DNA from: Microcaldota archaeon
GTDB taxonomy: Archaea; Micrarchaeota; Micrarchaeia; Micrarchaeales; CABMGC01
Assembly: GCA_021802765.1 (NCBI GenBank)
Contig: JAJZRI010000001.1
Location: 186,001-250,000, forward strand
Direction of reading: 5' to 3'
DNA: 64,000 nucleotides
The notes under the pieces: model-generated
The model's database searches: none
What the model was told of the DNA's origin: nothing
The model's input: the letters and a program-made list of their open reading frames with translations, nothing else
Shown here: in pieces, positions 52,082-64,000 of the stretch
Position numbering within the stretch: position 1 is the stretch's first letter
How the letters are laid out: each line of letters begins with the position of its first letter
Made by a program: the position numbers and the translations under genes

Positions 52082-52777
52082 ATGTGCAGAATGTTTGCGT
52101 ACGTTGGAGACTCAAACAAGGAGCTTATGCAACTTTACTCTGCACTGAAGAAAGCCGCTGAGCACGATCCAATTGCCGAAAGGCTTGGGGTTGGGTTCAA
52201 AAGCCATGGGGATGGGTGGGGATACGTGATTGCAGGGGATGATGGATCCTTGTACCATTACAGAACGGCTAAAGCGATATATGAAGATTTGCACGAAGTG
52301 CCAAAGATTAACGGCAATTTTAGCGCAATATTTCATGTTAGGAAGGCAAGTGACAATACAACGATAAGACCTTCGTTTTCACATCCGTTACTTGAAGACA
52401 ATGAACGGGAGCTAATATTCTTCGCACACAACGGATCCATAAAGAAAGAGCCCTTGGCAAAGGAACTTGGATTTGATGGGGTGGCCATAGATAGCGAGCT
52501 TGCTGCAAAGCTGTTTGCAAGGGATGGGATTAGATGTATGCGTTTGCTTGAGAAGAACACAAAGTCGGCGCTGAATCTGCTTATAATGAGCATAGACAGA
52601 AAGACAGGTAAAGTAAAAATCAGCTACAAGAATTATTACGTCAAGAAGGACAGATCTGAGTTCTATGACCTTTACTACAAGAAGCTTGATAACGGCAGGG
52701 CAGTATATTCATCTACGCTAGACCTGCTTGGACTGAACGGAAATAAGGTTGCTGGGGATGGACTTGGTCGCTTGTAA
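52082..52777 (+). CDS. class II glutamine amidotransferase
   Basis: A 231-residue Ntn-type amidotransferase of the YafJ/EgtC-like group. Cys2 after the initiator Met is the expected nucleophile (MCRMFAYVG). HGDGWGYVIAG, FHVRKASDNTT, FSHPL and FAHNGSI are the substrate-binding blocks. The frame opens at TTG 52073, but ATG 52082 places the Cys correctly. No synthase partner domain is fused and none is adjacent, so the acceptor reaction is unknown. Confidence 0.88.
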   Translation: MCRMFAYVGDSNKELMQLYSALKKAAEHDPIAERLGVGFKSHGDGWGYVIAGDDGSLYHYRTAKAIYEDLHEVPKINGNFSAIFHVRKASDNTTIRPSFSHPLLEDNERELIFFAHNGSIKKEPLAKELGFDGVAIDSELAAKLFARDGIRCMRLLEKNTKSALNLLIMSIDRKTGKVKISYKNYYVKKDRSEFYDLYYKKLDNGRAVYSSTLDLLGLNGNKVAGDGLGRL

Positions 52778-52899
52778 TTCATTGCGCAATAGCACTGAGT
52801 GCATGGTTGCATCGTGGTCGGGATATAGCAAGTTTAAGCATTCGCAGAAGGTTTTCCCACATTTGTTAAATATGTTGAATAAATATGATATGTGAAAAC

Positions 52900-53424
52900 A
52901 TGAAAAAGAGTGAAATTATTGTATTTACCATCGGCCACTCAACACGCCTGACCAGAGACTTTCTAGGAGTGCTTGATGCATATGGAATAGAGGAGGTCAT
53001 AGATGTACGCACCATACCCAGATCAAGAAAAAATCCCCAATTCAATGAGAAAAGGCTCTCTGCAACCCTTAGAAGGCACAAAGTAAGGTATAAACATATG
53101 GGCGGGCTTGGAGGGCTTAGGCACGCGCTAAAGGACTCAGTCAATACCTACTGGCATAATGCCTCATTTAGGGGTTTTGCAGATTATATGCAGACTGATG
53201 AATTCAAGGACAATATTGATTCATTGATAAAGATAGCAAAGAAAAGGCAGGTGACTTTAATGTGCGCAGAGGCTGTGCCGTGGAGATGCCATAGGTCATT
53301 AATAGCAGATGCCCTTGCAGTTAGGGGAATTAAAGTAATTCACATATTTAGCGCCACAAATTCAAGACGACATGAGATTACAAGGAGTGCGAAGGTAAGA
53401 AAGGGAAATATAGTATATAAATGA
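52900..53424 (+). CDS. DUF488 family protein
   Basis: A 174-residue DUF488 protein: TIGHSTR near the start, VIDVRTIPRSRKNPQFN, YKHMGGLGGLR, and LMCAEAVPWRCHRSLIADAL, with the Cys pair typical of the family. The biochemical role is not known; the conserved residues suggest nucleic-acid or metal binding. ATG 52900 is chosen (52885 in frame). TATA-like GTTAAATATG lies about 35 bases upstream. Confidence 0.88.
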   Translation: MKKSEIIVFTIGHSTRLTRDFLGVLDAYGIEEVIDVRTIPRSRKNPQFNEKRLSATLRRHKVRYKHMGGLGGLRHALKDSVNTYWHNASFRGFADYMQTDEFKDNIDSLIKIAKKRQVTLMCAEAVPWRCHRSLIADALAVRGIKVIHIFSATNSRRHEITRSAKVRKGNIVYK

Positions 53425-53451
53425 TCGTTTAGCAGTAGTATTAGTGAATTG

Positions 53452-53868
53452 ATGGATAATGTAGCTGGAACAAGCAGGATGGCACGGATATACATAGCGA
53501 CAGGGTTTCTTTACTTCATCATAGGCACGATTCTTCTGGCACTCAATCTCTCTAATCTTATTGCCATAAATAGGGATCCGATATTCATACTGCTGCTATA
53601 CGGTTTTGTTGCCCAGTTGATTTTCGGTGTTTCTTATATTTTTGTGCCTGGCGTCTCTAGGCACAGTGGAACAGATTACAGAATCATAATAGCAGAGTAC
53701 ATTCTTCTAAATATTGGTATAATAGCATTTGAGATAGTTGCACTTAGTGGCCAAAAGGACGTTGCAGTGCTCATCACAGGACTGATTGTATTAATTGTGG
53801 CAGTTCTGCTGCATGCGACCAACATATGGCGCACGATAATTGGTAGGGAGAATAAAGGCACTGTCTGA
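53452..53868 (+). CDS. four-segment membrane protein
   Basis: A 138-residue protein with four membrane segments (about 15-37, 45-65, 78-97, 103-124) and short loops. The phrase GFVAQLIFGVSYIFVPGVSRH recalls proteins of the haem-copper oxidase subunit I-like or NnrS-like type, but haem His ligands are not evident. Not assigned. ATG 53452 follows a TTG that also opens the frame. Confidence 0.55.
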   Translation: MDNVAGTSRMARIYIATGFLYFIIGTILLALNLSNLIAINRDPIFILLLYGFVAQLIFGVSYIFVPGVSRHSGTDYRIIIAEYILLNIGIIAFEIVALSGQKDVAVLITGLIVLIVAVLLHATNIWRTIIGRENKGTV

Positions 53869-53881
53869 TTCAAAGTATTAA

Positions 53882-53983
53882 ATGCCATTGAGAGTGTCCT
53901 TGCAGGATCTGGTGGGTTATGCGAATCAGATTACAAGATGGCCATCACGTAAGAAGGATTCAAAAAGTCTACACGTTAAATAG
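53882..53983 (+). CDS. possible 33-residue ORF
   Basis: ATG 53882 to TAG 53983, a basic peptide (MPLRVSLQDL at the start, many Lys/Ser at the end) filling the gap between the membrane protein and the transporter on the same strand. Composition looks protein-like, but there is no second line of evidence. Confidence 0.25.
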   Translation: MPLRVSLQDLVGYANQITRWPSRKKDSKSLHVK

Positions 53984-53988
53984 CATAT

Positions 53989-55233
53989 ATGTTCTTGCCC
54001 TTATCAGTCATAGTATTGGCAATGTCTTTTGTGCTGGTAGCTGTAAGGCAGGTAGGCAGAGTCAGATTGCAGATATGGCAGATAATCCTTGGTGGAGCAG
54101 TAGTTGTGATACTGACAGGGCAGATATCTGTAACTGCAGCAATATCCTACATAGACCCCACCATCATAGTCTTCCTAATCGGAATCTTTATTCTTGGCGA
54201 AGCACTTACAAGGAGCGGATACATACAATATCTTGCTTACAGGATTTTTAGGCATTTTAGATCTGTGGATAGCCTAGTACTTGCAATCCTTTTCTCGATG
54301 GGATTGGCATCCATGTTCATGCTTAACGATACTATGGCAATCATAGGCACGCCAATAATCATGCTCTTTGCGATTAAAGAAGGCATAAACCCAAAGCTCA
54401 TGCTGTTGTGCCTTGCATTTGCGATAACAATAGGCAGCGTTGCAAGCCCCATAGGCAATCCTCAGAATTTGCTTATAGCTTCAAGCGGTTTTGTTAAGTC
54501 ACCGTTTGCAACTTTTTTCTCTAGCCTTTTGATACCGACACTGATAAATCTTTTCGTGACTTATTTAGTCCTTAGGCTATTTTTCAGAAGCGAGTTCCAC
54601 AATAAACAGCTTATCCATAGCCACGTAAGGATAAAGGATAAGGAACTAGCCAGACTTTGCAACTTATCTCTTGCCTTGCTTGGCATTTTAATTCTTTTTT
54701 ATGTCGTAATTGAGATTTTTGGTTTTATGCATGGCCTTAGTTTTGCATACATTGCAGTTATTTCGGCTTTGCCCATAGTGCTTTTCAGCAAGCAGAGATT
54801 TTCCATAGTCAAGCAGATAGATTGGTCGACAATAGTGTTTTTCATGGCCCTTTTCGTTCTTGTGGGCAGCGTATGGCAGTCGGACTTTTTCCAATATGCT
54901 ACAAATAGCCTGCATCTTGACTTAGGTTATGTTCCGACAGTACTGCTTTCCAGTGTTATAGGCAGTCAGTTTATTTCAAACGTGCCAATGGTGCTACTCT
55001 ATCTAAAACTTTTGGCATATGTGCACATCACAACAACAACTGCAATGGCACTTGCCGCAGGAAGTACAATTGCTGGTAATCTATTCATTCTGGGAGCCGC
55101 AAGCAATGTGATAATAGTACAAATGGCAGAGAAGAGATACAACAGTTCCCTGTCGTTTTTTGATTTCGCAAGGGTCGGCATTGTTGTTACAGCACTTAAT
55201 GTACTCATATACTGGATATTCCTGACGGTATAG
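53989..55233 (+). CDS. ArsB/NhaD-type anion or ion transporter
   Basis: A 414-residue membrane protein of the ion transporter superfamily (ArsB, NhaD, SLC13-like) with about eleven segments in two halves. The first re-entrant motif contains SMFMLNDTMAIIGTPI and AITIGSVASPIGNPQN; the second contains SNVPMVLLY and AAGSTIAGNLFILGAASN. The N-P/N-D signatures fit sodium-coupled anion carriers or arsenite pumps. No arsenate reductase is adjacent, but the ArsR-type gene is about 4 kb away. Start at ATG 53989. Confidence 0.85.
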   Translation: MFLPLSVIVLAMSFVLVAVRQVGRVRLQIWQIILGGAVVVILTGQISVTAAISYIDPTIIVFLIGIFILGEALTRSGYIQYLAYRIFRHFRSVDSLVLAILFSMGLASMFMLNDTMAIIGTPIIMLFAIKEGINPKLMLLCLAFAITIGSVASPIGNPQNLLIASSGFVKSPFATFFSSLLIPTLINLFVTYLVLRLFFRSEFHNKQLIHSHVRIKDKELARLCNLSLALLGILILFYVVIEIFGFMHGLSFAYIAVISALPIVLFSKQRFSIVKQIDWSTIVFFMALFVLVGSVWQSDFFQYATNSLHLDLGYVPTVLLSSVIGSQFISNVPMVLLYLKLLAYVHITTTTAMALAAGSTIAGNLFILGAASNVIIVQMAEKRYNSSLSFFDFARVGIVVTALNVLIYWIFLTV

Positions 55234-55337
55234 ATTTAATTTTATAGAGATTTAACTTCTGATTGTTTAATGCATCGTAATTAAATAGCAACATTAGGTG
55301 CATTGTCATTTTTATTGGTATTTGACTTACGCCATGC

Positions 55338-57722
55338 TCAGATGCGCTTGAGCACAGCAAGCTTGACTGCATCGTTTACGAATAATGAAATCAGTGATAT
55401 CAAAAATACTGCTGCTATTGGCGCGATGCCTATTTCAGGCATAAGTATCCCTAAATATGCCATTGCAGTCCCTACTATTATTCCTGCTGAAGATGCTATA
55501 ACAAGGAATGCGCTTGGTGCTGACTTCCAGAACGCTCGCTTCTCTCTTAGGTTTATTACGGTGAACTTGTCTGTAACGTTCAGGAGCAGAAATACCATTG
55601 TTGGGAACTGTAGGCGGCTAAGACCCAACAGGCCGAACCCGATAGGTATAAGTGCAAGTGCTTCGACAAGTAGGAACGCACCAACCGAGCCAGATAATAT
55701 AAGGAGATTGCGCACATTCCACACGTCTGGCTTGATCGAATATCCGGCATTATCTGTAGATATGGATATGTTTACCATGTCATTGGTAAATATCAAAAGT
55801 ATAAGAAGGAATGCAGTTATTGGTATAAAATGCAGTGACATGAAGGTTATGGCTATGAAACCAACTATCTGAAACACCTTGGAGACCTTGGCCATTGCGT
55901 AAGTTGACATCCTCTCAAATATCCTCCGGCTCTCCTTAACGGCATCCGCTATGACCCCCAGACCATCTCTGGTAAGCACCAAGGCGGCAGCGCTCTTGGC
56001 CACATCAGTGGCATTGGATACGGCTATACCAACCTCTGCCTGCTTTAGTGCGGGAGCGTCGTTAACACCATCTCCAGTCATTCCTACAATATACCCTTTT
56101 GCCTGCAGCGCCCTTACCAGCGAGTACTTGTCCTGCGGATACACGTTTGCAAATCCACCAGCAGAAATGGCATTGAGCTCAAGGAGGCTCTGGTCGCGAC
56201 CAACTCCAGAGGACATATCCACTATAAGCCCTGGTAGTCCGACTTCTTCAGCTATGTGCTTGGCAACGGCTGCATTGTCACCAGTCAGCATCTTTATTGA
56301 TATGCCGAGCTTTGACAATTCTAATACCAGATCCTTGGCATCCTGCCTAGGCTTGTCATAAAGGGCCACGAGCCCGTCAATGACCCAGCTATCGCCAGGT
56401 TTTTTTACTGCAACCATTATCGGCCGCATGCCCCGAGACGCCAGTTCATCTGCCTTTGAACTAATCTCAACCAAACTGGAACCGTTAAGACCGGCCGCTT
56501 TTAGAACAGATACGACTGCGCCCTTCATAACCTCGTATTTGAATTCGCCACCCATTACTGCGGCGGTGCACTTCGTTTCTGGACTAAAGGGCGTGAAGCT
56601 GGACTGAATTCCCGGATGGATGCCAAGGCGTTCGGCGTAATCCAAAATGGCATTGTCCATAGGATCGTTGTCCTCCCTCCGCGACGCCTCAGCGGCATGC
56701 TTGAGAACTGATGCCACATCAGCAAGCACTGGCACTACCTCGCCCACTGTTATTCGGTTTTCAGTCAGTGTGCCAGTCTTATCTGCACACAGTATGCTCA
56801 TTGTCGCAGTACTCTCTATTGCTTCCAATCTAGTTACAAGTATCGACTTTTGCGCAAGCCGCCCTGTGCCCAGTGCCATCGCCACGGTAAACGCTGCCTC
56901 TAAAGCTACAGGTACCGATGCTATGAATACCACGAGCAGAAAAGGCACCATGATTGCAAGCGACATATGCAGCAAAAAGAACCCATACAGGAACATAACG
57001 GCAATAACCACCAGGTCGCCTGCTACAAGATATTTCACTATGTGCATTATTGCAATTTCAAGATGCGATTTTGGCGATGCCTTCTGCACTAGTCGCGCAG
57101 TTTTTCCATAAACTGTCCCGTATCCTGTGCCGGTGACTATGCACGTTGCCTCTCCACGGCGCGCAATTGCGCCCTGATATACTGTGTCCCCTATGGATTT
57201 TTCTATTGGCAGCGACTCGCCGCTTATCACCGATTCGTCCGATTCGAATATTTCAGATTCGATTATCCTAGAATCCGCGGGTATTATGTCGCCTAGTTTG
57301 ATCCGGATAATGTCTCCAGGAACAAGCTCTCGGGCAGGCAGAGTGGTCCATACGCCATCCCTTAGAAGCCTTGCCTTTGAGGCCAACTGGTTCATCAGAG
57401 CCTGGACAGATACGTCGGCCTTGTACTCCTCCACGAAGCCGACTATGGAATTGAACACCAAAAGAGCCACGACTATGTAGAAGTCTTGCATATGGCCAAG
57501 CACATAGGAAAGGATAATTACAAGCCACAGTAATGCTTGCACCGGGCCATAGAACTTCCTTGCGAATTGATAATAGTAGTTGGGCTTCTTTGCTGTTATC
57601 TCATTGTATCCATATTTGGCAATTCTTAACCTAGCTTCAGCAGAACTTAGTCCGGTTTTGCCAGTGCCGGCATCTGAGACAGCTCCATCTGCGCCAATCG
57701 GATGAAAATCACTATCTGCCAT
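55338..57722 (-). CDS. P-type ATPase, plasma-membrane proton-pump type (P3A)
   Basis: A 794-residue P-type pump. The actuator motif is ISGESLPIEKS, phosphorylation site CADKTGTLTEN, nucleotide-binding MLTGDN, and hinge MTGDGVNDAPALKQAEVGIAVS. Segment M4 reads ASVPVALEAAFTVAMALG, where P3A proton pumps have V-A-L-P-A, so Glu replaces the Pro. Ten membrane segments are plausible. P3A pumps export protons, consistent with life at low pH, though the M4 change leaves the ion uncertain. ATG 57722 is used; an upstream frame to 57761 is unlike the family. Confidence 0.9.
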   Translation of the reverse strand: MADSDFHPIGADGAVSDAGTGKTGLSSAEARLRIAKYGYNEITAKKPNYYYQFARKFYGPVQALLWLVIILSYVLGHMQDFYIVVALLVFNSIVGFVEEYKADVSVQALMNQLASKARLLRDGVWTTLPARELVPGDIIRIKLGDIIPADSRIIESEIFESDESVISGESLPIEKSIGDTVYQGAIARRGEATCIVTGTGYGTVYGKTARLVQKASPKSHLEIAIMHIVKYLVAGDLVVIAVMFLYGFFLLHMSLAIMVPFLLVVFIASVPVALEAAFTVAMALGTGRLAQKSILVTRLEAIESTATMSILCADKTGTLTENRITVGEVVPVLADVASVLKHAAEASRREDNDPMDNAILDYAERLGIHPGIQSSFTPFSPETKCTAAVMGGEFKYEVMKGAVVSVLKAAGLNGSSLVEISSKADELASRGMRPIMVAVKKPGDSWVIDGLVALYDKPRQDAKDLVLELSKLGISIKMLTGDNAAVAKHIAEEVGLPGLIVDMSSGVGRDQSLLELNAISAGGFANVYPQDKYSLVRALQAKGYIVGMTGDGVNDAPALKQAEVGIAVSNATDVAKSAAALVLTRDGLGVIADAVKESRRIFERMSTYAMAKVSKVFQIVGFIAITFMSLHFIPITAFLLILLIFTNDMVNISISTDNAGYSIKPDVWNVRNLLILSGSVGAFLLVEALALIPIGFGLLGLSRLQFPTMVFLLLNVTDKFTVINLREKRAFWKSAPSAFLVIASSAGIIVGTAMAYLGILMPEIGIAPIAAVFLISLISLFVNDAVKLAVLKRI

Positions 57723-57830
57723 CAATAATAAACTGCAGACCAAGGTATAAAACAATTCCACAAACCAGATGGAACCAGAAGTCCGATACGTTTTTATGAT
57801 TTTTATGAGCCATATTCACTATTTAGGCAC

Positions 57831-57844
57831 TTCGTCGCGACGAA
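57831..57844. repeat. perfect 14-bp palindrome in the gap upstream of the P-type ATPase gene
   Basis: TTCGTCGCGACGAA lies about 110 bases upstream of the P-type ATPase start. With GCCACGTCGC nearby it may be an operator. The rest of the gap 57723-57929 shows only AT-rich, promoter-like DNA on the minus strand (TTTTTATGATTTTTATG region). Confidence 0.4.
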
Positions 57845-57929
57845 CGCCACGTCGCATCAAGTATTTTTCTTCCCAAGTGTACGTTTACTATAGAATCAGC
57901 TTAAACCCTGACGAGGTTAGGGGGATGCT

Positions 57930-58058
57930 CTAGGTATTCATAGCCAGTTTTGCCATGCGGTATCCAAGCGGCATGAAAGGGCAGCGGTGCCCGTGAAATT
58001 CCCATGCCCATTCTGGAAGTCCGCCATATCTGTTTATATCGTTTTTAATGAGTTCACC
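57930..58058 (-). pseudogene. FmdE-like gene fragment
   Basis: On the minus strand, 42 codons between two in-frame stops encode a segment with [20 protein letters not shown], the N-terminal signature (F-H-G-H-x-C-P-x-x-x-x-G-x-R) of the FmdE family (formylmethanofuran dehydrogenase subunit E-like, binds metal). There is no start codon upstream in frame, and a TAG follows at NT, where relatives continue for over 100 residues. It lies directly behind the TDT transporter gene and shares its decay. I read it as the remnant of a longer gene. Confidence 0.65.
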
Positions 58059-58072
58059 TTAAGCATATACAA

Positions 58073-59062
58073 TTATGATGCGCCTGCGACGGATCTGCCT
58101 TTTTTGGGATTAAGCATTTGTTTAAGAGAACCTAACAATACGATTATAAACACGGCAGTTAGGCACACGTATAAAAACAATGAAATCGTTTTGAATGGGC
58201 TGAAGAAATCAGACAAAGAGGCCGTGCCCAAAGTGAATGCTGCTGTGGGGAATACGTAACTCCACCAGCCTAGGTTAAATTGAAAACCGGACTTGAGATA
58301 TCTCCTAAAGAAAAGCAGGTTGACCCCTATGGCCCAAATTCCGAATCCCCACAAAGCCGCTCCACCTAAGGCCCCCAACGGGCTCAGGTTCATTTTAAGC
58401 AGGATTCCTGCGGAATTGGAGATTTTCATAAAGTCAACGATCAAAATCCCTATCGGGGCTAAAAGAATGTAATTCGTAGGCGCAAGTTCTACAGTGGGCA
58501 ACGTATGGCTGACTAACCGGAAAAAGAGCATGCCAAGGATTAACAGGAAAAGCATAGTACCAATGCCAAAGAAAAAGAGTGCGAATACCATAGTGACTGC
58601 GCTAACAGGGTACAGGAGCACCGCATTGGTGACAAGAATAGTGGCTACTGGCGTGATAAACCATCCGCCATGCATCTGGTCTAACTTAATCTTGATATTT
58701 GAAAAAAAGTGGTATGGCAGATAGATTGCAAGAGCAAGGATTAAGCCTGCGCCATAAACAAGCAAACCCAGATCTATGAAGCTAGGTATAATGTTCCAGC
58801 ATAAGATCGCCAAGATTACTGCAGAAATGGGTTGAAGGGCATAGAAGTTTCACAGCAATGTGTGCTTCAGCTCAGTTTTGACGATTCCAGGATGAAGAAC
58901 AAGCTTTACAAGTAATATCGCAGAAAATAACAAGAAGAAAAATACCAAAACCCAGGTTAAAGGAATTACCAGGAATGGAAGGAAGGTCTTTGATGCCAAT
59001 GCGAATCCTCCTGTTCCAAGGATTGAGCCAAAAGCCATTATAGAGAATTTACTGGTATCCAT
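58073..59062 (-). pseudogene. TDT/SLAC1-type transporter interrupted by an in-frame UGA
   Basis: Two open segments in the same frame, 58853-59062 (MDTSKFSIMAFGSILGTGGF, two membrane segments, ending ELKHTLL) and 58073-58849 (NFYALQPISAVILAIL onward, about eight segments), together make a complete tellurite-resistance/dicarboxylate transporter. They are separated by a single TGA at 58850-58852. No frameshift or gap is needed. Other genes here end in TGA, so the codon is a normal stop. Either a recent nonsense mutation, a sequencing error, or readthrough. It is led by the ArsR gene 23 bases upstream. Confidence 0.75.
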
Positions 59063-59084
59063 AATACAAACCTTATTGTATGGT

Positions 59085-59348
59085 TTAAACCCTTTTTCCA
59101 AACAGTCTAAGTACGTGCCTGTCACTTATCTTGTAAATCACCTTTTTTCCTTCCCTTCTGTTTGAGAGTATACCCGCATTTGCAAGGTACTTAAGCTGCA
59201 GTGAAACGGTGGGCTGCGCCCTGCTTACAAGCTTAGGCAGTTCGCATGCACATCTTTCCTGCTTGACCAATTTCGATACAATGTTGTACCTCGTCTTGTC
59301 CCCAAGCGCCTTGAAAAGCACGTAATTGTGCTGTTGTTTAGCGTTCAT
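59085..59348 (-). CDS. ArsR-family metal-responsive repressor
   Basis: An 87-residue winged-helix repressor: FKALGDKTRYNIVSKLV, then C33-x-C35 in RCACELPKL, the position of the ELCVC-type metal site, then the recognition helix (QPTVSLQLKYLANAGIL) and wing (NRREGKKVIYKIS). It probably binds arsenite, antimonite or a soft metal, or senses redox via the two Cys. It heads the TDT-FmdE transcript and faces a DsrE gene across a palindromic operator, so both sides are likely under its control. ATG 59348 is preferred. Confidence 0.9.
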   Translation of the reverse strand: MNAKQQHNYVLFKALGDKTRYNIVSKLVKQERCACELPKLVSRAQPTVSLQLKYLANAGILSNRREGKKVIYKISDRHVLRLFGKRV

Positions 59349-59350
59349 AA

Positions 59351-59374
59351 ATATATTTATAAGCATAAATATAT
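59351..59374. promoter_or_regulatory. palindromic operator between arsR and dsrE
   Basis: ATATATTTAT-AAGC-ATAAATATAT is a perfect 10-bp inverted repeat with a 4-base centre. It begins three bases upstream of the ArsR start codon and covers TATA-like sequences of both divergent genes, the expected place for ArsR-family binding. A leaderless ArsR transcript would be blocked by binding here. Confidence 0.7.
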
Positions 59375-59408
59375 ATAAATTTTGTGTCTATACCTATGCG
59401 GTGAACGT

Positions 59409-59762
59409 ATGAGTGGAAAAATAGCAATAATCATAGCTTCAGATTGGGATCAAAAGCTCAAAGTGACCTCGGGTCTTCATCTTGCTAAGCGCATATATGA
59501 TGCGAGACAGGAAAACGGCATAGATGCATTAGAGGTATTCCTTTATGCAGGTGGCTCAAAGCTACTGCAATCCTTGCCAGAAGGCTTCGTAAATATACTG
59601 GAAGAGCTAAAGCAGGGCAACATCCTTGTAAAGGTATGTACGACGGAGGCACGGGCGTGGAATCTTGAGGAAAGCGCAAAGAAATATGATATAGTCCTAG
59701 AATTTGCGAGAGACGCATTCTCAAGATACGCAAGGGATGGATTTACTGTTTTAACCTTTTGA
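59409..59762 (+). CDS. DsrE family protein
   Basis: A 117-residue DsrE/TusD-like protein, with IAIIIASDWDQKL, LEVFLYAGGSKLLQSLPEG and a loop LVKVCTTEARAWNLEE whose Cys may be the persulfide-carrying residue. Such proteins transfer sulfur. ATG 59409 is taken since the TTG-opened upstream codons overlap the operator region. It is divergent from ArsR and probably co-regulated. Confidence 0.8.
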   Translation: MSGKIAIIIASDWDQKLKVTSGLHLAKRIYDARQENGIDALEVFLYAGGSKLLQSLPEGFVNILEELKQGNILVKVCTTEARAWNLEESAKKYDIVLEFARDAFSRYARDGFTVLTF

Positions 59763-59779
59763 AACCATGAAGGCATGGC

Positions 59780-60019
59780 GTGGTTCCTAGGAGACCTGTT
59801 GGTGAAGTAGCCAGAAACCAACTTTCAGACCAATTGAAGAAGCTCTCAGCAATGGGCGGCACTGTTAAGAGTCTCGGAAAAATAGGACTTTTACCAAAAG
59901 AGGATCAGGTTATAGAACATTATGACAACGCTATCACTGACTTTGTAAATGGTAAGCCTGACGAAGAATCCGGTAGGCTGATTTTCAAGTGGTTAAAAAG
60001 ATGTAATGAGGCCATTTAA
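59780..60019 (+). CDS. small hypothetical protein beside the att site
   Basis: A 79-residue basic protein starting at GTG 59780, helical (QLSDQLKKLSAMGGTVKSLG; ESGRLIFKWLKRCNEAI). Not recognised. It follows DsrE by 17 bases on the same strand. Its stop is about 30 bases left of the tRNA-Asn fragment, so it belongs to the chromosomal side of the element boundary. Confidence 0.5.
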   Translation: MVPRRPVGEVARNQLSDQLKKLSAMGGTVKSLGKIGLLPKEDQVIEHYDNAITDFVNGKPDEESGRLIFKWLKRCNEAI

Positions 60020-60051
60020 TAGCGCCCATACGAATATAACCTGAAGCGCAT

Positions 60052-60110
60052 CGCCCGATGCGGGGATCGAACCTGCGACATCCTGGTTAACAGCCAGGCG
60101 CTCTACCGAC
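60052..60110 (-). tRNA. tRNA-Asn (GTT) lacking its 5' end: candidate attachment-site copy
   Basis: On the minus strand the D-loop GG, D-stem 3' half GAGC, anticodon arm CCTGG-CTGTTAA-CCAGG (anticodon GTT), variable loop, T-loop TTCGATC and 3' acceptor strand ATCGGGC plus G are all present. The 5' acceptor strand (GCCCGAT expected) and the 5' half of the D-arm are absent: upstream bases (AAAAGGCTTGCTTGTC) do not fit. The T-stem has an A-C mismatch. A partial tRNA 3' part of this kind is the usual footprint of integration at a tRNA gene, with the element on its 5' side (rightwards). An intact copy would be at the far end. Type kept as tRNA for lack of a better term. Confidence 0.75.
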
Positions 60111-60192
60111 AAGCAAGCCTTTTCATAACGAGCTTTTGCCTTGGCAACCATGCAATCGAACCCTTGTTTTCAAAAGAAAATACGCAATTTAG

Positions 60193-60200
60193 ATATAAAT
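60193..60200 (+). promoter_or_regulatory. TATA box before the structured region
   Basis: ATATAAAT (within TTTAGATATAAATATG) on the plus strand. It would place a start near 60222, just at the beginning of the hairpin-rich stretch, arguing for plus-strand transcription of a structured RNA. Confidence 0.35.
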
Positions 60201-60208
60201 ATGCGTGA

Positions 60209-60550
60209 GGTTCGATTTGATGCGGATAAACGAACCCCGACTTTAGCCAAACTTGTGTCTTTAGCCGATTCCCACGAAATGGCTAAAGAAAGATGACGAC
60301 GAAGCTCAAAAACCCTGTGTTTTTGTCGGGAGGCTTCTTTACACAAGTTTCGCGTACGGCTCAGCATCAAGCCCGCTACGGCCGCTTCGCGGCCTACCGG
60401 CCATAGGCCTGCGGGCACTACTCCAAAATCGGGTTCTAGGCCACTTTTGGGTGGGGGCAAAAGTGGCCGCTTGAAGAAAAGGTACCTTAAACTGCTCGGT
60501 GGCGAGCTTGAAGGCGCATTGGCGCCGCACGCCCCTCTGGCCGCATGGCC
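60209..60550 (+). ncRNA. dense nested inverted repeats: candidate large structured RNA or element origin
   Basis: In 340 bases I find these perfect arms: GGTTCG 60209/CGAACC 60231; AAACTTGTGT 60249-60258 with ACACAAGTTT 60341-60350, enclosing CTTTAGCC 60259/GGCTAAAG 60281, GAAGC 60301/GCTTC 60333 and CAAAAAC 60307/GTTTTTG 60319; GCCCGC 60371/GCGGGC 60411, enclosing GGCCGC-TTC-GCGGCC (60380-60394) and GGCC-ATA-GGCC (60399-60409); GGCCACTTTTG 60439/CAAAAGTGGCC 60458 (11 bp); GCTCG-GTGG-CGAGC (60494-60507); GGCGC-ATTG-GCGCC (60513-60526); GGCC-GCAT-GGCC (60539-60550). A repeat CTTTAGCC at 60241 and 60259 also looks iteron-like. No convincing ORF. The strand is inferred; it could be a replication or recombination region instead. 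Confidence 0.5.
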
Positions 60551-60567
60551 GAGCTGGGCGAAAGGAA

Positions 60568-60777
60568 TTATTTGTTTAACGGTTTAATAATCACTTTTAC
60601 GGATTTACCAACCAAGCCTTCTAGCAAGGAACTGCGTATATTTATACCGCCGTACGTATACTTGTGTTCTCCGGATTCCCTACGTCGAATATTACCTCCT
60701 TTGAGTTGCCTTTTGTATGTGAACTCAGTTACATTTACCGGATAAAATTCGAACTCATCTTTTTGGTATCTTGCCAT
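60568..60777 (-). CDS. small hypothetical protein of the element
   Basis: A 69-residue basic beta-rich protein: MARYQKDEFEFYPVNVTEFT, a basic middle (RQLKGGNIRRRES) and a final GLVGKSVKVIIKPL strand. The size and basic strands suggest a DNA-binding or SH3/AbrB-like fold, but nothing is recognised. It is transcribed towards the structured region, which would be its 3' UTR if read on the minus strand. Start ATG 60777, with an AT-rich promoter gap upstream (60780-60880) shared with the plus-strand genes. Confidence 0.55.
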   Translation of the reverse strand: MARYQKDEFEFYPVNVTEFTYKRQLKGGNIRRRESGEHKYTYGGINIRSSLLEGLVGKSVKVIIKPLNK

Positions 60778-60892
60778 ATTATCCCTATTCTATAGGGCGA
60801 CGTAGTTTTAAAAACTATTCGGACTAGTTTTTTTAAGAGGATTTTTTCGTACAAAAGATTTAATAAGGGTCACGGAGTAGGTGTTAATAGGG

Positions 60893-61240
60893 ATGGTTAT
60901 GGAATTAATAAAACAGCCGGGGTCGCAGGAGGATTTAGTTGCAAGTTTATTGGTAGGCATTTCAGATGGATGGAAGATTGGTGAAGTTGCGACTAGCACT
61001 TATAGAAGATTGCCCGATCCGCAGCCAGTATATATAGACTCATCAAATATGAGGCGCATGCATCATGGAGAAGCAGGCATGTGGATCGTGACAGCCAGCA
61101 CTTTGCTTGGTCTTGTTGCATATAGTTATGCAGATGGGCAGGATAAGGAAATGGCGATGCAGATTGCAGGAATGGGTATTGGATTTGGTGCACAGTTGAT
61201 CTGGGATGATAAAGAAGACCATAACGAATGGTTCCATTAA
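60893..61240 (+). CDS. hypothetical element protein with membrane segment
   Basis: A 115-residue protein (ATG 60893; GTG 60881 and ATG 60899 also fit). A helical N-terminal part (LVASLLVGISDGWKIGEV) and polar middle with His pair (RRMHHGEAG) are followed by a membrane segment (MWIVTASTLLGLVAYSYA), a second weaker one (AGMGIGFGAQLIW) and an acidic tail ending HNEWFH. TATA-like GATTTAATAAGG at about 60858-60869. First gene of the plus-strand element operon. No family recognised. Confidence 0.6.
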   Translation: MVMELIKQPGSQEDLVASLLVGISDGWKIGEVATSTYRRLPDPQPVYIDSSNMRRMHHGEAGMWIVTASTLLGLVAYSYADGQDKEMAMQIAGMGIGFGAQLIWDDKEDHNEWFH

Positions 61241-61626
61241 TTGGTGATAGAATTCCTAAATATAATATAATTTCTATGGGGGAAATGGCGCGCATAGGAG
61301 AGTGGGTAGAGGTATTCAGAGCGCTAATTGCACTTGGTATTCTTGGTTATGTAGCAGTTACAATATCAAGTGTCATACCTATTGGGCCATTCTTGCAGAT
61401 ATTGCCTTTGTTCTATTTTGCTATAACTGTTGCTATAGTGATTGGAGTACTGGAGGTGCCTGATCATGGAACATTGTTTACAATTGGGTGGACTTTTGCC
61501 TCTTTGCTGCTAGCCGGATCTGGACTTATAAGCAGATGGGAGGCACTATTGGATCTTGTTCCGATAGCCTTAATTATATGGAATTATTTAGATGATTCGG
61601 GTGGATTGAATGGTACATACCTCTAG
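61228..61626 (+). CDS. hypothetical element membrane protein
   Basis: A protein of up to 132 residues with four membrane segments: VFRALIALGILGYVAVTISS, ILPLFYFAITVAIVIGVLEV, LFTIGWTFASLLLAGSGLIS and LLDLVPIALIIWNYL. ATG 61228 overlaps the preceding gene by 13 bases; ATG 61276 and 61285 are alternative starts. Overlaps with both neighbours show tight operon packing typical of viruses and plasmids. Not recognised. Confidence 0.6.
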   Translation: MVPLIGDRIPKYNIISMGEMARIGEWVEVFRALIALGILGYVAVTISSVIPIGPFLQILPLFYFAITVAIVIGVLEVPDHGTLFTIGWTFASLLLAGSGLISRWEALLDLVPIALIIWNYLDDSGGLNGTYL

Positions 61627-62179
61627 ATGTTCGCGTGCTAGCAGCACGCATTGTAGTTGCTCGTGCGGCGGTGCGGCCCATGGTGGGGGTGGAGGGATAG
61701 TATCAATTGCTGAGGCATCGAGTGATAGAGACGTACCAGAATATAGGAAATTCTTTGGTAATTCTCTTGTTCAAGCAGCATTGACACATGCTTGCATGGC
61801 TGGACTGACAGTAGTTGCGCCTGGTGCAGGGTTGGCGCTGGCTACTGCATATACAACATACAACTACTCAAACTTGGGATACACCATGTTTAAGGCATAT
61901 AATGAATTCCAAAATGGAAACGTTGCCCAGCGCAGAGATTCATTAAGGACTATAACTACAAACGTAACAAGTTTTGCGGTGGGAGATAGTTCGGATAAGG
62001 CTGCAGCTTACATAGTTGACAAAGCCAAGGCTAGCGGATATGTAAAGGAATTAGCTGGGAAAAGTGGGGTGGAAGAAGTCATCCTAACAGACATGTTGGA
62101 AGGAACAACCTCACAGGCAATAAATAATGGTTTCACAGAACTGGCCAGATTTGGTGCAGGTAAGGTGTTTGGTGCTTGA
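61610..62179 (+). CDS. element protein with Cys/His/Gly N-terminus and hydrophobic core
   Basis: A 189-residue protein. Residues 1-30 are unusual: five Cys/His-rich positions (RCSRASSTHCSCSCGG) followed by AHGGGGG. A hydrophobic stretch follows (ACMAGLTVVAPGAGLALATA) at about 62-82, then a helical soluble part to the end (FGAGKVFGA). ATG 61610 is the only plausible start and overlaps the previous gene by 17 bases. The head could bind metal or be a processed leader. No family recognised. Confidence 0.6.
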   Translation: MVHTSRCSRASSTHCSCSCGGAAHGGGGGIVSIAEASSDRDVPEYRKFFGNSLVQAALTHACMAGLTVVAPGAGLALATAYTTYNYSNLGYTMFKAYNEFQNGNVAQRRDSLRTITTNVTSFAVGDSSDKAAAYIVDKAKASGYVKELAGKSGVEEVILTDMLEGTTSQAINNGFTELARFGAGKVFGA

Positions 62180-62470
62180 ATGGATGAAAAAACTTTTCAA
62201 ATCATAGGAATAATAGCGGCTCGTAAGGGCGCTTACTATACGCTAGTTAGAAATGAATTTCTTAGGCAGTTAAAGAAGCAGAAGAAGGCGATTAGTGATG
62301 ATGAGGATCAGGAAATGCGGGCGCGTTTGAGAAGGGCCATAGCACAATTACCTAATGAGTTATTCTTAGGCGTACAGGAAACAAGCAATATAGATAGGAG
62401 CCTCGGCCTAGATCAAATAAGGCTTGATACAAAAAGGATAGCCAAGGAAATAATCACAGGACTCATTTAG
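62180..62470 (+). CDS. hypothetical helical element protein
   Basis: A 96-residue charged helical protein (LVRNEFLRQLKKQKKAISD; EDQEMRARLRRAIAQLPNEL), with no membrane segment. The ATG directly follows the TGA of the previous gene. Not recognised. It lies between the small membrane-protein run and the ATPase, so a role in assembly, DNA binding or coupling is possible but unproven. Confidence 0.55.
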   Translation: MDEKTFQIIGIIAARKGAYYTLVRNEFLRQLKKQKKAISDDEDQEMRARLRRAIAQLPNELFLGVQETSNIDRSLGLDQIRLDTKRIAKEIITGLI

Positions 62471-62511
62471 ATTACAGTTAGGGTAAAATAGCTTATCATT
62501 TAAATGGAATC

Positions 62512-64000
62512 ATGGGTTTTTTAGGGGAAGGGATACATAGTAATGCCGTGAGCAAGGTTGCTGCCTACCAAATACCACTCATAAGTAATGCTAGAATGCC
62601 ACTTGTCCGAAAAAGATGCGGCGTTCTGATTAAGTCCGCTATCAAAATACCTGACTATCTAAAGAAAAAACCAAACCAAAACCTGCTTATATGCGGAACC
62701 ACTGGGCAGGGCAAGTCCAAGCTAATGCGGCTTGCTCTTGAGATAATGCCCAACCCTAAAACAATCTTCTCGTACAAGGAGAACGACGAATACCTACAAA
62801 TTGAGGGCAACTTCATAGCCGCTGAGCGCAGCTTGCCAAACCCATTCAATGACCCGGAGGCCTTTACTGATGCCTTCGCTGTGGCCTTCAACCTCCAATC
62901 TGAGGGGATACAGGCCTCTACGGCCATGTCCCTTGTAAGCAGCCTAGCCAAGGAGAGCAGGACTTGGGCTGATTTCATATCCAACGCCAAAAAGCACGCC
63001 GCGAAGGCTCGAGACGCAAACGTACGCTCTGCCACAAACTACCTGCTCGAGAAGATTAAGGCGCTTACCTACGACTCCAAGCAGATAGAGCTCGACCTTG
63101 GCAAGACCAACGTGCTCGACATGAGCCTGCTCAACGATGACGCCAAGACCTTCTACTCCGAGCTCTTCCTCAGGCAGATATACGCCGGCTTGAAGCGCCG
63201 CAGGGGCGCCGATAAGGTCATCGTGTGCGTGGACGAGGCCCATAGGCTTACTAGGAACGTCCAGAGCAAGCGCCAGAGCATAATCAACGAGATGAGCAGG
63301 GAGATAAGGGCTTTTGGGATGCTCTGGACGGCTACGCAGAACCTCTCCGACATACCCGACCCGCTTAGGAACCAGTTTGCCACCCAGTTCCTGTTCAGCA
63401 CCACATCCGAAGGGGACATGCGGGCGCTTGGGCAGATAGACAGGGACTTGGCTAGGTGCGTATCCGAGCTTAGGAACCACGAGTTTGTTGATGCAAAGCA
63501 TGAGGACGTGCACAAGTCCATTGGAATATTTAGGGCAGACATAAGCTCGCTGAAAGAGCGGGACCTTAGCAGTTTAAGGCCTGCTGAAACGGTGCAGGCC
63601 AAACCAGTAACATTAGAGGTGCCAGAAGGAAGGCCAACAACCATGCTACACGCAGCAATGTTAGCAGTATATGAGAATCCAGGAGCTGGACTTGGGAAGA
63701 TAGCTAAATACCTTAAAACTAAGGGTTGGATAACAAGCGATCCTACAATTTACGGCTCTAAAGATAGGAAGGGTGTGCTTGACAATCTGGTAAGCTTAGG
63801 TTACGCAAAGGTAGATGGCTCGGGCTACAAGCTGACCGAAAAGGCATTGTGGTGGATTGATGCAGAGATACTTGTAAAGCGTGCTAAGAACGTTGGTTCT
63901 GAACTGCACATGCAGCTTATGAGAAAAACGGTAGAAAAACTACACGAAGAGAATATGCTTGTTGTAATACCGGAGAGAAAAGATGTGCCAGATTTGATAG
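62512..64000 (+). CDS. HerA/FtsK-like ATPase with C-terminal wHTH and nuclease-like domain (partial)
   Basis: The frame from ATG 62512 stays open through the right edge (496 codons). Residues 62-69 are Walker A GTTGQGKS; Walker B is VIVCVDEAHRL (about 234-244), followed by a sensor WTATQNLSDIPDPLRNQFAT (about 270-289). Residues about 380-450 form a winged helix (AGLGKIAKYLKTKGWIT; GVLDNLVSLGYAKV). The last visible residues (ENMLVVIPERKDVPDL) look like the first half of a PD-(D/E)XK fold. The overall layout recalls the chromosomal ATPase at 34.8 kb. Likely DNA translocation, packaging or transfer by the element. Confidence 0.8.
   Translation, partial: MGFLGEGIHSNAVSKVAAYQIPLISNARMPLVRKRCGVLIKSAIKIPDYLKKKPNQNLLICGTTGQGKSKLMRLALEIMPNPKTIFSYKENDEYLQIEGNFIAAERSLPNPFNDPEAFTDAFAVAFNLQSEGIQASTAMSLVSSLAKESRTWADFISNAKKHAAKARDANVRSATNYLLEKIKALTYDSKQIELDLGKTNVLDMSLLNDDAKTFYSELFLRQIYAGLKRRRGADKVIVCVDEAHRLTRNVQSKRQSIINEMSREIRAFGMLWTATQNLSDIPDPLRNQFATQFLFSTTSEGDMRALGQIDRDLARCVSELRNHEFVDAKHEDVHKSIGIFRADISSLKERDLSSLRPAETVQAKPVTLEVPEGRPTTMLHAAMLAVYENPGAGLGKIAKYLKTKGWITSDPTIYGSKDRKGVLDNLVSLGYAKVDGSGYKLTEKALWWIDAEILVKRAKNVGSELHMQLMRKTVEKLHEENMLVVIPERKDVPDLI

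Follow-up and report, generated by a model that had tools for sequence, protein, structure and literature searches.

An integrative element in a tRNA-Asn gene of a Micrarchaeota archaeon whose XerA-like integrase gene is very probably split by its own insertion

What kind of DNA begins behind a tRNA-Asn that lacks its 5' part, and what becomes of an integrase whose gene runs across its own site of insertion? Both questions arise at the right-hand end of the window, a stretch of 64,000 nt (C6:186001-250000) from the host assembly G000, a draft metagenome-assembled genome (MAG) of a Microcaldota archaeon with 872 kb in 17 contigs. The truncated tRNA marks the left boundary of an integrative element of ~9 kb. 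Its tyrosine integrase is very probably suicidal, the gene being cut in two by its own insertion, a grading which applies jointly to the whole explanation given below. Positions above 64000 are window-equivalent and lie on C6 to the right of the window.

Rfam places the 5'-truncated tRNA on the minus strand at 60060-60114, where it covers model positions 10-63 of 71 and scores 34.2 bits. It is not among the tRNA genes called by ARAGORN. A 95-bp probe found an exact copy of 59 bp at C6:255046-255104, within an intact tRNA-Asn(GTT). A perfect repeat of this length is far beyond chance. The spacing of the two copies (8,997 bp) gives the size of the element, and since it ends at ~69104, 5.1 kb of it are located outside the window. 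Its GC content is 43.4%, compared with 48.8% in the left part of the window and 48.5% in the right flank. No further tRNA-Asn was found in the host assembly, the next best match being a tRNA-Thr with 76%. The original prediction, which was made from the window only, had placed a truncated tRNA-Asn at the left boundary and expected the element to run rightwards to an intact minus-strand tRNA-Asn(GTT), with a shared core of roughly 55 bases and an integrase. All of this was borne out, including the integrase, which adjoins the intact right-hand tRNA.

The empty site that the prediction had proposed to look for in related genomes exists as well. In the congener G095, the right flank of which is 98% identical, a single tRNA-Asn is present without element DNA. 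When the host flanks are joined in silico, this site results, with GCGATGcgcttcaggttata as chromosomal 3' flank. In G137, G025, G066, G079 and G045 the intact tRNA-Asn is followed by an identical or almost identical flank. At the occupied sites of the host and of G153, element DNA (GCGATGaaatttacg.cgacaaaatcgggttc) is found in place of the chromosomal flank. Taken together, direct repeats of a tRNA 3' end, empty sites in relatives and an own recombinase characterise a tRNA-targeted integrative element. In G045, two contigs (C3 at its end, L053; C16 at its start, L054) break exactly at the attachment core of tRNA-Asn, which is compatible with a population of mixed occupied and empty sites.

The integrase gene is found in two parts at opposite ends of the element, which is more unusual than any feature named in the original prediction. 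The catalytic part (intC) follows the intact tRNA-Asn. Its reading frame is open through the tRNA, and no start codon is located between the tRNA and the integrase domain. The left end holds the open reading frame (ORF) MVAKAKARYEKACLS (intN), which starts from the ATG at 60151 on the minus strand and enters the attachment fragment in the integrase frame. A TATA-like sequence lies ~40 bp upstream of the intN start. Judging from the sequence, a circular form would fuse intN, the attachment site and intC into one gene. Integration would hence behead the integrase gene, because the putative promoter, the start and the first codons sit at the other end from intC.

A survey of 245 genomes of the phylum yielded 77 distinct loci of the integrase family, which is present in 88 of the genomes. 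Named relatives in GTDB genomes belong almost exclusively to Candidatus Micrarchaeota, which points to this phylum for the host as well. A tRNA is located just upstream on the same strand at 47 loci (39 by ARAGORN plus 8 intron-containing ones by Rfam), with targets including tRNAs for Leu, Glu, Arg, Asn, Val, Lys, Ala, Pro and Asp. The frame of the integrase reads through the tRNA 3' end without a stop at 42 of these 47 loci, compared with 19 of 94 other frames (Fisher p=1e-15). At 29 loci no in-frame ATG precedes the intC domain, and at 11 there is neither ATG nor GTG nor TTG in frame before it. The far end was evaluated for 13 elements with the far attachment copy on the same contig. On the non-attachment side, an in-frame ATG precedes any stop in 11 of them (this element and 10 of the 12 others), compared with 3 of 26 other frames (p=1.4e-5); as the rows are related by descent, the p-values of both frame tests overstate independence. 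Moreover, intN peptides are alike across genomes for a given target, namely in four tRNA-Glu elements, which read MKLE(K/N)D(D/A)K..GQGRGAFNPATRVQIPxGA, and in two tRNA-Leu elements (G115 and the second element of the host). Many related elements in the phylum therefore appear to use self-splitting.

The second family element of the host (L145 1-4131; C6:136801-140931) comprises 3.7 kb in tRNA-Leu(TAG), carries its intN (MARNMGMKQLGNALKPLA) at the far end and contains an ORF of 75 aa resembling a HicA toxin. A third integrase relative of the host is located at C2:3210-3908. In L137 (G008:C1:191201-211200) the tRNA-Leu 3' end recurs several more times downstream of the integrase, a pattern resembling a tandem accumulation of elements at a single tRNA. 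The contigs of L130, L131, L141 and L146 break off within ~20-450 bp past the end of the integrase gene, an indication that repeated or variable sequence follows.

The family differs from the suicidal integrases known so far. PF00589 is matched by all 22 sampled members, while PF16795 (Phage_integr_3) is matched by none of them at E<=1; across the phylum, PF16795 exceeds its cut-off in 2 of 245 genomes. The invariant residues H211, R214, H215 and Y247 form a HxxR signature, and the R...KxxR...Y pattern is not found. An integrase of the SSV type was ruled out on these two grounds. All 22 members match the archaeal XerA model (NF040815; best family E 1.7e-20), and the best solved relatives are the XerC-like recombinase 4a8e and XerA 5hxy. 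Member 1 of the family aligns from position 42 of the 263 model positions, so the first ~41 are missing from intC. The present intC scores 44.6 bits, far below the curated cut-off of 220 bits for a XerA equivalog.

In SSV1, pTN3 and pT26-2 the attachment site likewise lies within the integrase gene, overlaps the tRNA and is read as protein, such that insertion would part intN from intC (PMC8371274). However, their enzymes carry PF16795 and KxxR, whereas here PF00589 and HxxR are combined in a family nearest to XerA and found in Micrarchaeota. Suicidal integrases are regarded as a peculiarity of archaea, and the 2021 review presents them as PF16795 families of probable single origin, with no mention of DPANN (PMC8371274). 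As the known ones form the PF16795 group and the present family belongs to PF00589, self-splitting probably arose twice. XerA/XerC-like recombinases and pNOB8-type integrases share the recombinase fold, PF00589 and the match to the XerA model, but the pNOB8-type gene stays whole on insertion. Cryptic integrated elements of Thaumarchaeota, among them NitEve-E3 with a SSV1-like split integrase (PMC6563490), are similarly small, tRNA-integrated and of mixed cargo; they differ in integrase group and gene set. A literature search, largely without subscription papers, revealed no paper on such integrases of Micrarchaeota.

The targets seem to have changed repeatedly. A tree of 74 members implies 25 changes of target label (minimum possible 10; shuffled mean 41.7), and nearly identical intC are located behind different tRNAs in L105 (Pro) and L109 (Arg). 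At 8 of the 47 loci (L109, L089, L112, L146, L094, L080, L171 and L187) the gap from the present tRNA to the integrase domain contains a stretch resembling a tRNA 3' half, either of another or of a similar tRNA. L109, presently in tRNA-Arg, holds 32/32 bp of tRNA-Pro(CGG), L089 31 bp of tRNA-Pro (97%), L112 29 bp of tRNA-Val and L146 36 bp resembling tRNA-Ile. No tRNA-like matches were obtained with shuffled gaps or internal intC segments as controls. These stretches are best read as fossil attachment sites, which may have been left behind as a new site was added upstream. We consider it reasonably likely that the family represents a second suicidal class of independent origin, derived from XerA-like recombinases and common among Micrarchaeota, and that each change of target rebuilds the 5' part of the gene from tRNA 3' halves, so that old targets can still be read as fossils within it.

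The remaining genes of the element are listed in Table 1. The original prediction was also correct about the positions of the small overlapping ORFs, of the hairpin-rich block and of the HerA-like ATPase. An initial label of p69 as DUF2080-like was dropped, as Pfam gave no match. The AlphaFold model of the ATPase, of moderate confidence (pLDDT 76, pTM 0.53), matches HerA, DndH, VirB4 and TrwB; with its Walker A/B core and the predicted HerA/VirB4-like fold the protein classifies as a translocase of the HerA/FtsK superfamily. Homologues occur in 26 of the 245 genomes, several adjoining p140 and the integrase, and most of the longer ones have N-terminal transmembrane (TM) segments, which this ATPase lacks. 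The model of p140 shows a small alpha/beta fold with the PD-(D/E)XK nucleases EcoT38I, Hjc and Cas4 as best PDB neighbours, although at E=0.003-0.01 only. The adjacent predicted endonuclease and C5 methylase, accompanied by Vsr, form a putative type II restriction-modification set. A related element of G153 occupies the same tRNA. It shares ATPase (73% protein identity), integrase (74%) and p140 (69%); the remaining cargo is different and the small ORFs have no recognisable counterparts.

Table 1. Features of the element and its ends in window coordinates.
Feature	Position	Strand	Basis or remark
Left attachment copy, 3' part of tRNA-Asn plus 3 bp	60049-60107	-	59/59 bp identical to 69046-69104
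intN, ATG (first base 60151) and 14-15 codons	60108-60151	-	in frame with attachment copy; putative joining to intC
Hairpin-rich, mostly non-coding left end	60108-60600		sequence
Palindromic stretch with TATA-like sequence, putative promoter of intN	60181-60207	-	sequence; function putative
p69, 69-aa ORF	60568-60777	-	no Pfam/PHROG family
p119, 119-aa ORF	60881-61240	+	no Pfam/PHROG family
p132, 132-aa ORF	61228-61626	+	three TM-like segments; no Pfam/PHROG family
p189, 189-aa ORF	61610-62179	+	one TM-like segment; no Pfam/PHROG family
p96, 96-aa ORF	62180-62470	+	no Pfam/PHROG family
HerA/VirB4/TrwB-type ATPase, 570 aa	62512-64224 (window part to 64000)	+	weak AAA/HerA sequence matches; model
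SLFN_AlbA_2 (AlbA_2/Schlafen) protein	64228-65499		AlbA_2 1e-20
p140, PD-(D/E)XK-like nuclease candidate	65496-65918		weak structural neighbours
Vsr	65908-66312		1e-18
Eco47II-like endonuclease	66319-67020		RE_Eco47II 1.9e-51
C5 methylase	66992-68008	-	3.3e-87
intC, tyrosine integrase	68156-69045	-	PF00589 E=1.7e-14
Intact tRNA-Asn(GTT), holds right attachment copy	69049-69120 (outside window)	-	ARAGORN and Rfam, 70.1 bits

The original prediction had also stated that the gene set matches no virus or plasmid type that it could name. This holds for IMG/VR, where integrase, ATPase and p140 have no match, and for phage records, searched with ATPase and integrase. In the plasmid collection the ATPase finds, besides one weak bacterial match, a distant relative on plasmid pPO1 of Picrophilus oshimae (36% over 50% of the query, E=6e-49), so the element is not wholly unlike every known plasmid. 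However, pPO1 is a free plasmid of 7.6 kb with Cdc6 and a serine recombinase, and the other element genes have no detectable counterpart on it. Neither Pfam nor PHROGs revealed a relaxase, Rep or capsid gene among the element proteins.

Several points weigh against a self-splitting integrase. An in-frame GTG inside the tRNA-Asn could in principle start a shortened intC. Neither a circular form nor an intact copy of the integrase gene was found, and the integrase is without match in the IMG/VR, plasmid and phage collections. Since the two ends have the attachment sequence in common, some of the frame continuity follows automatically, and only the non-attachment part counts as independent evidence. 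In G153, the candidate far end on contig 43 runs into a stop and yields no intN; it is probably part of another island. In the tRNA-Glu elements the DNA of intN is conserved at every codon position, which does not single out selection at the protein level; for counts of codon changes the divergence is too small to decide. About 30 of the 77 family members, many on deeper branches, have no recognised upstream tRNA, thus the trait may not be universal. Moreover, the surveyed genomes are all drafts and mostly MAGs.

Some of these points would suit an ordinary tRNA-integrated element of the lambda or pNOB8 kind, the integrase of which stays intact after insertion. In that case intC would be translated from a tRNA-internal or unusual start such as the GTG, with the frame continuity and the left ATG being accidental, and the whole catalytic domain is indeed already contained in intC. 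We consider this improbable: accident would hardly account for the excess of open frames and of far-end ATGs over other frames, for the loci without any of the three start codons upstream of the domain, or for an intC devoid of the N-terminal part of the XerA model. There is practically no probability left for the notion that no mobile element exists at all, but only a decayed, split or intron-bearing tRNA beside ordinary fast-evolving genes. Intron-containing tRNAs do occur in Micrarchaeota relatives; however, the exact 59-bp repeat, the restored intact tRNA-Asn and the adjoining integrase rule out chance similarity and a split or intron-bearing tRNA, and the empty sites of the congeners refute this reading.

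Other alternatives concern the nature of the element. It could be a provirus of an undescribed virus with a restriction-modification set, the ATPase packaging DNA and the small membrane ORFs encoding virion proteins. The ATPase does match a PHROG annotated as terminase large subunit (5.7e-8), and TM-like segments are present in p132 and p189. Nevertheless a provirus is unlikely given that no capsid or other structural family is recognised in Pfam or PHROGs, that the viral collections hold no relatives of its proteins searched there, and that the G153 sister retains ATPase and p140 while the small ORFs are not recognisable. An integrative conjugative or mobilisable element is a tentative possibility, which would add to a self-splitting integrase rather than replace it. 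The ATPase would then act as coupling or translocation motor like TrwB or VirB4 and p140 as nicking or processing nuclease. This would fit the structural matches of the ATPase, the recurrence of both genes side by side near the integrase, the TM segments of most longer homologues and the distant relative on pPO1. On the other hand, no relaxase or other secretion genes are recognised, pPO1 is typed as non-mobilizable, the ATPase of this element is itself devoid of a TM segment, and HerA-type ATPases are also known in defence or repair.

Based on a suicidal integrase, the cycle of the element may be drawn as follows. In a circle, the attachment site would lie within the integrase gene, preceded by promoter, ATG and 14-15 codons, read as protein and followed by the catalytic part. 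The recombinase would insert the element into the 3' half of tRNA-Asn(GTT) such that the tRNA is left whole. IntC would remain at the right end behind the intact tRNA, and intN with promoter and start would be carried to the left end next to the tRNA fragment. As insertion strips intC of its promoter and start codon, the enzyme could presumably not excise the element; it would be switched off after a single use and the element locked in for as long as no complete relative supplies the activity in trans. The restriction-modification cargo with Vsr may further stabilise the element by punishing its loss, since punishing loss of the carrier element is established behaviour of type II systems. Spread could occur by vertical descent, or by putative DNA transfer via the HerA/VirB4-type ATPase and the nuclease. 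Release by a complete related integrase is conceivable by analogy with the proposal made for SSV2 and pTN3 (PMC8371274).

The surroundings of the site are variable too. Immediately to the left of the element a second variable region (52716-60020) encodes a P-type ATPase, an ArsR-like regulator and a membrane protein; at the equivalent position G095 harbours 3.7 kb of different genes. The counterpart of gene 53980-55232 in G117 is only 26 bp away from tRNA-Asn. A stretch at 57778-57942 recurs in many congener contigs, often close to contig ends, and on contig 17 of G153 it overlaps with the start of an IS200/IS605 TnpA-like ORF; it is probably a transposon end. On contig 43 of G153 (L272 4130-5426), a tRNA-Asn attachment copy directly follows an ORF pair resembling an AbiE toxin-antitoxin, hence different islands apparently share this tRNA as a hot spot.

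A suicidal integrase element in a tRNA gene is of a known kind; as far as the searched literature shows, the novelty lies in the recombinase family, in the host phylum and in the fossil sites. If true, a common and unrelated instance in DPANN archaea would mean that the trick evolved at least twice, and it would therefore likely be advantageous. How suicidal integrases change their target has been treated as a conundrum (PMC8371274), and fossil tRNA ends within the genes would provide a direct record of such changes. Moreover, the elements would provide a ready catalogue of the cargo that moves among very small archaea, with restriction-modification and other defence-like genes.

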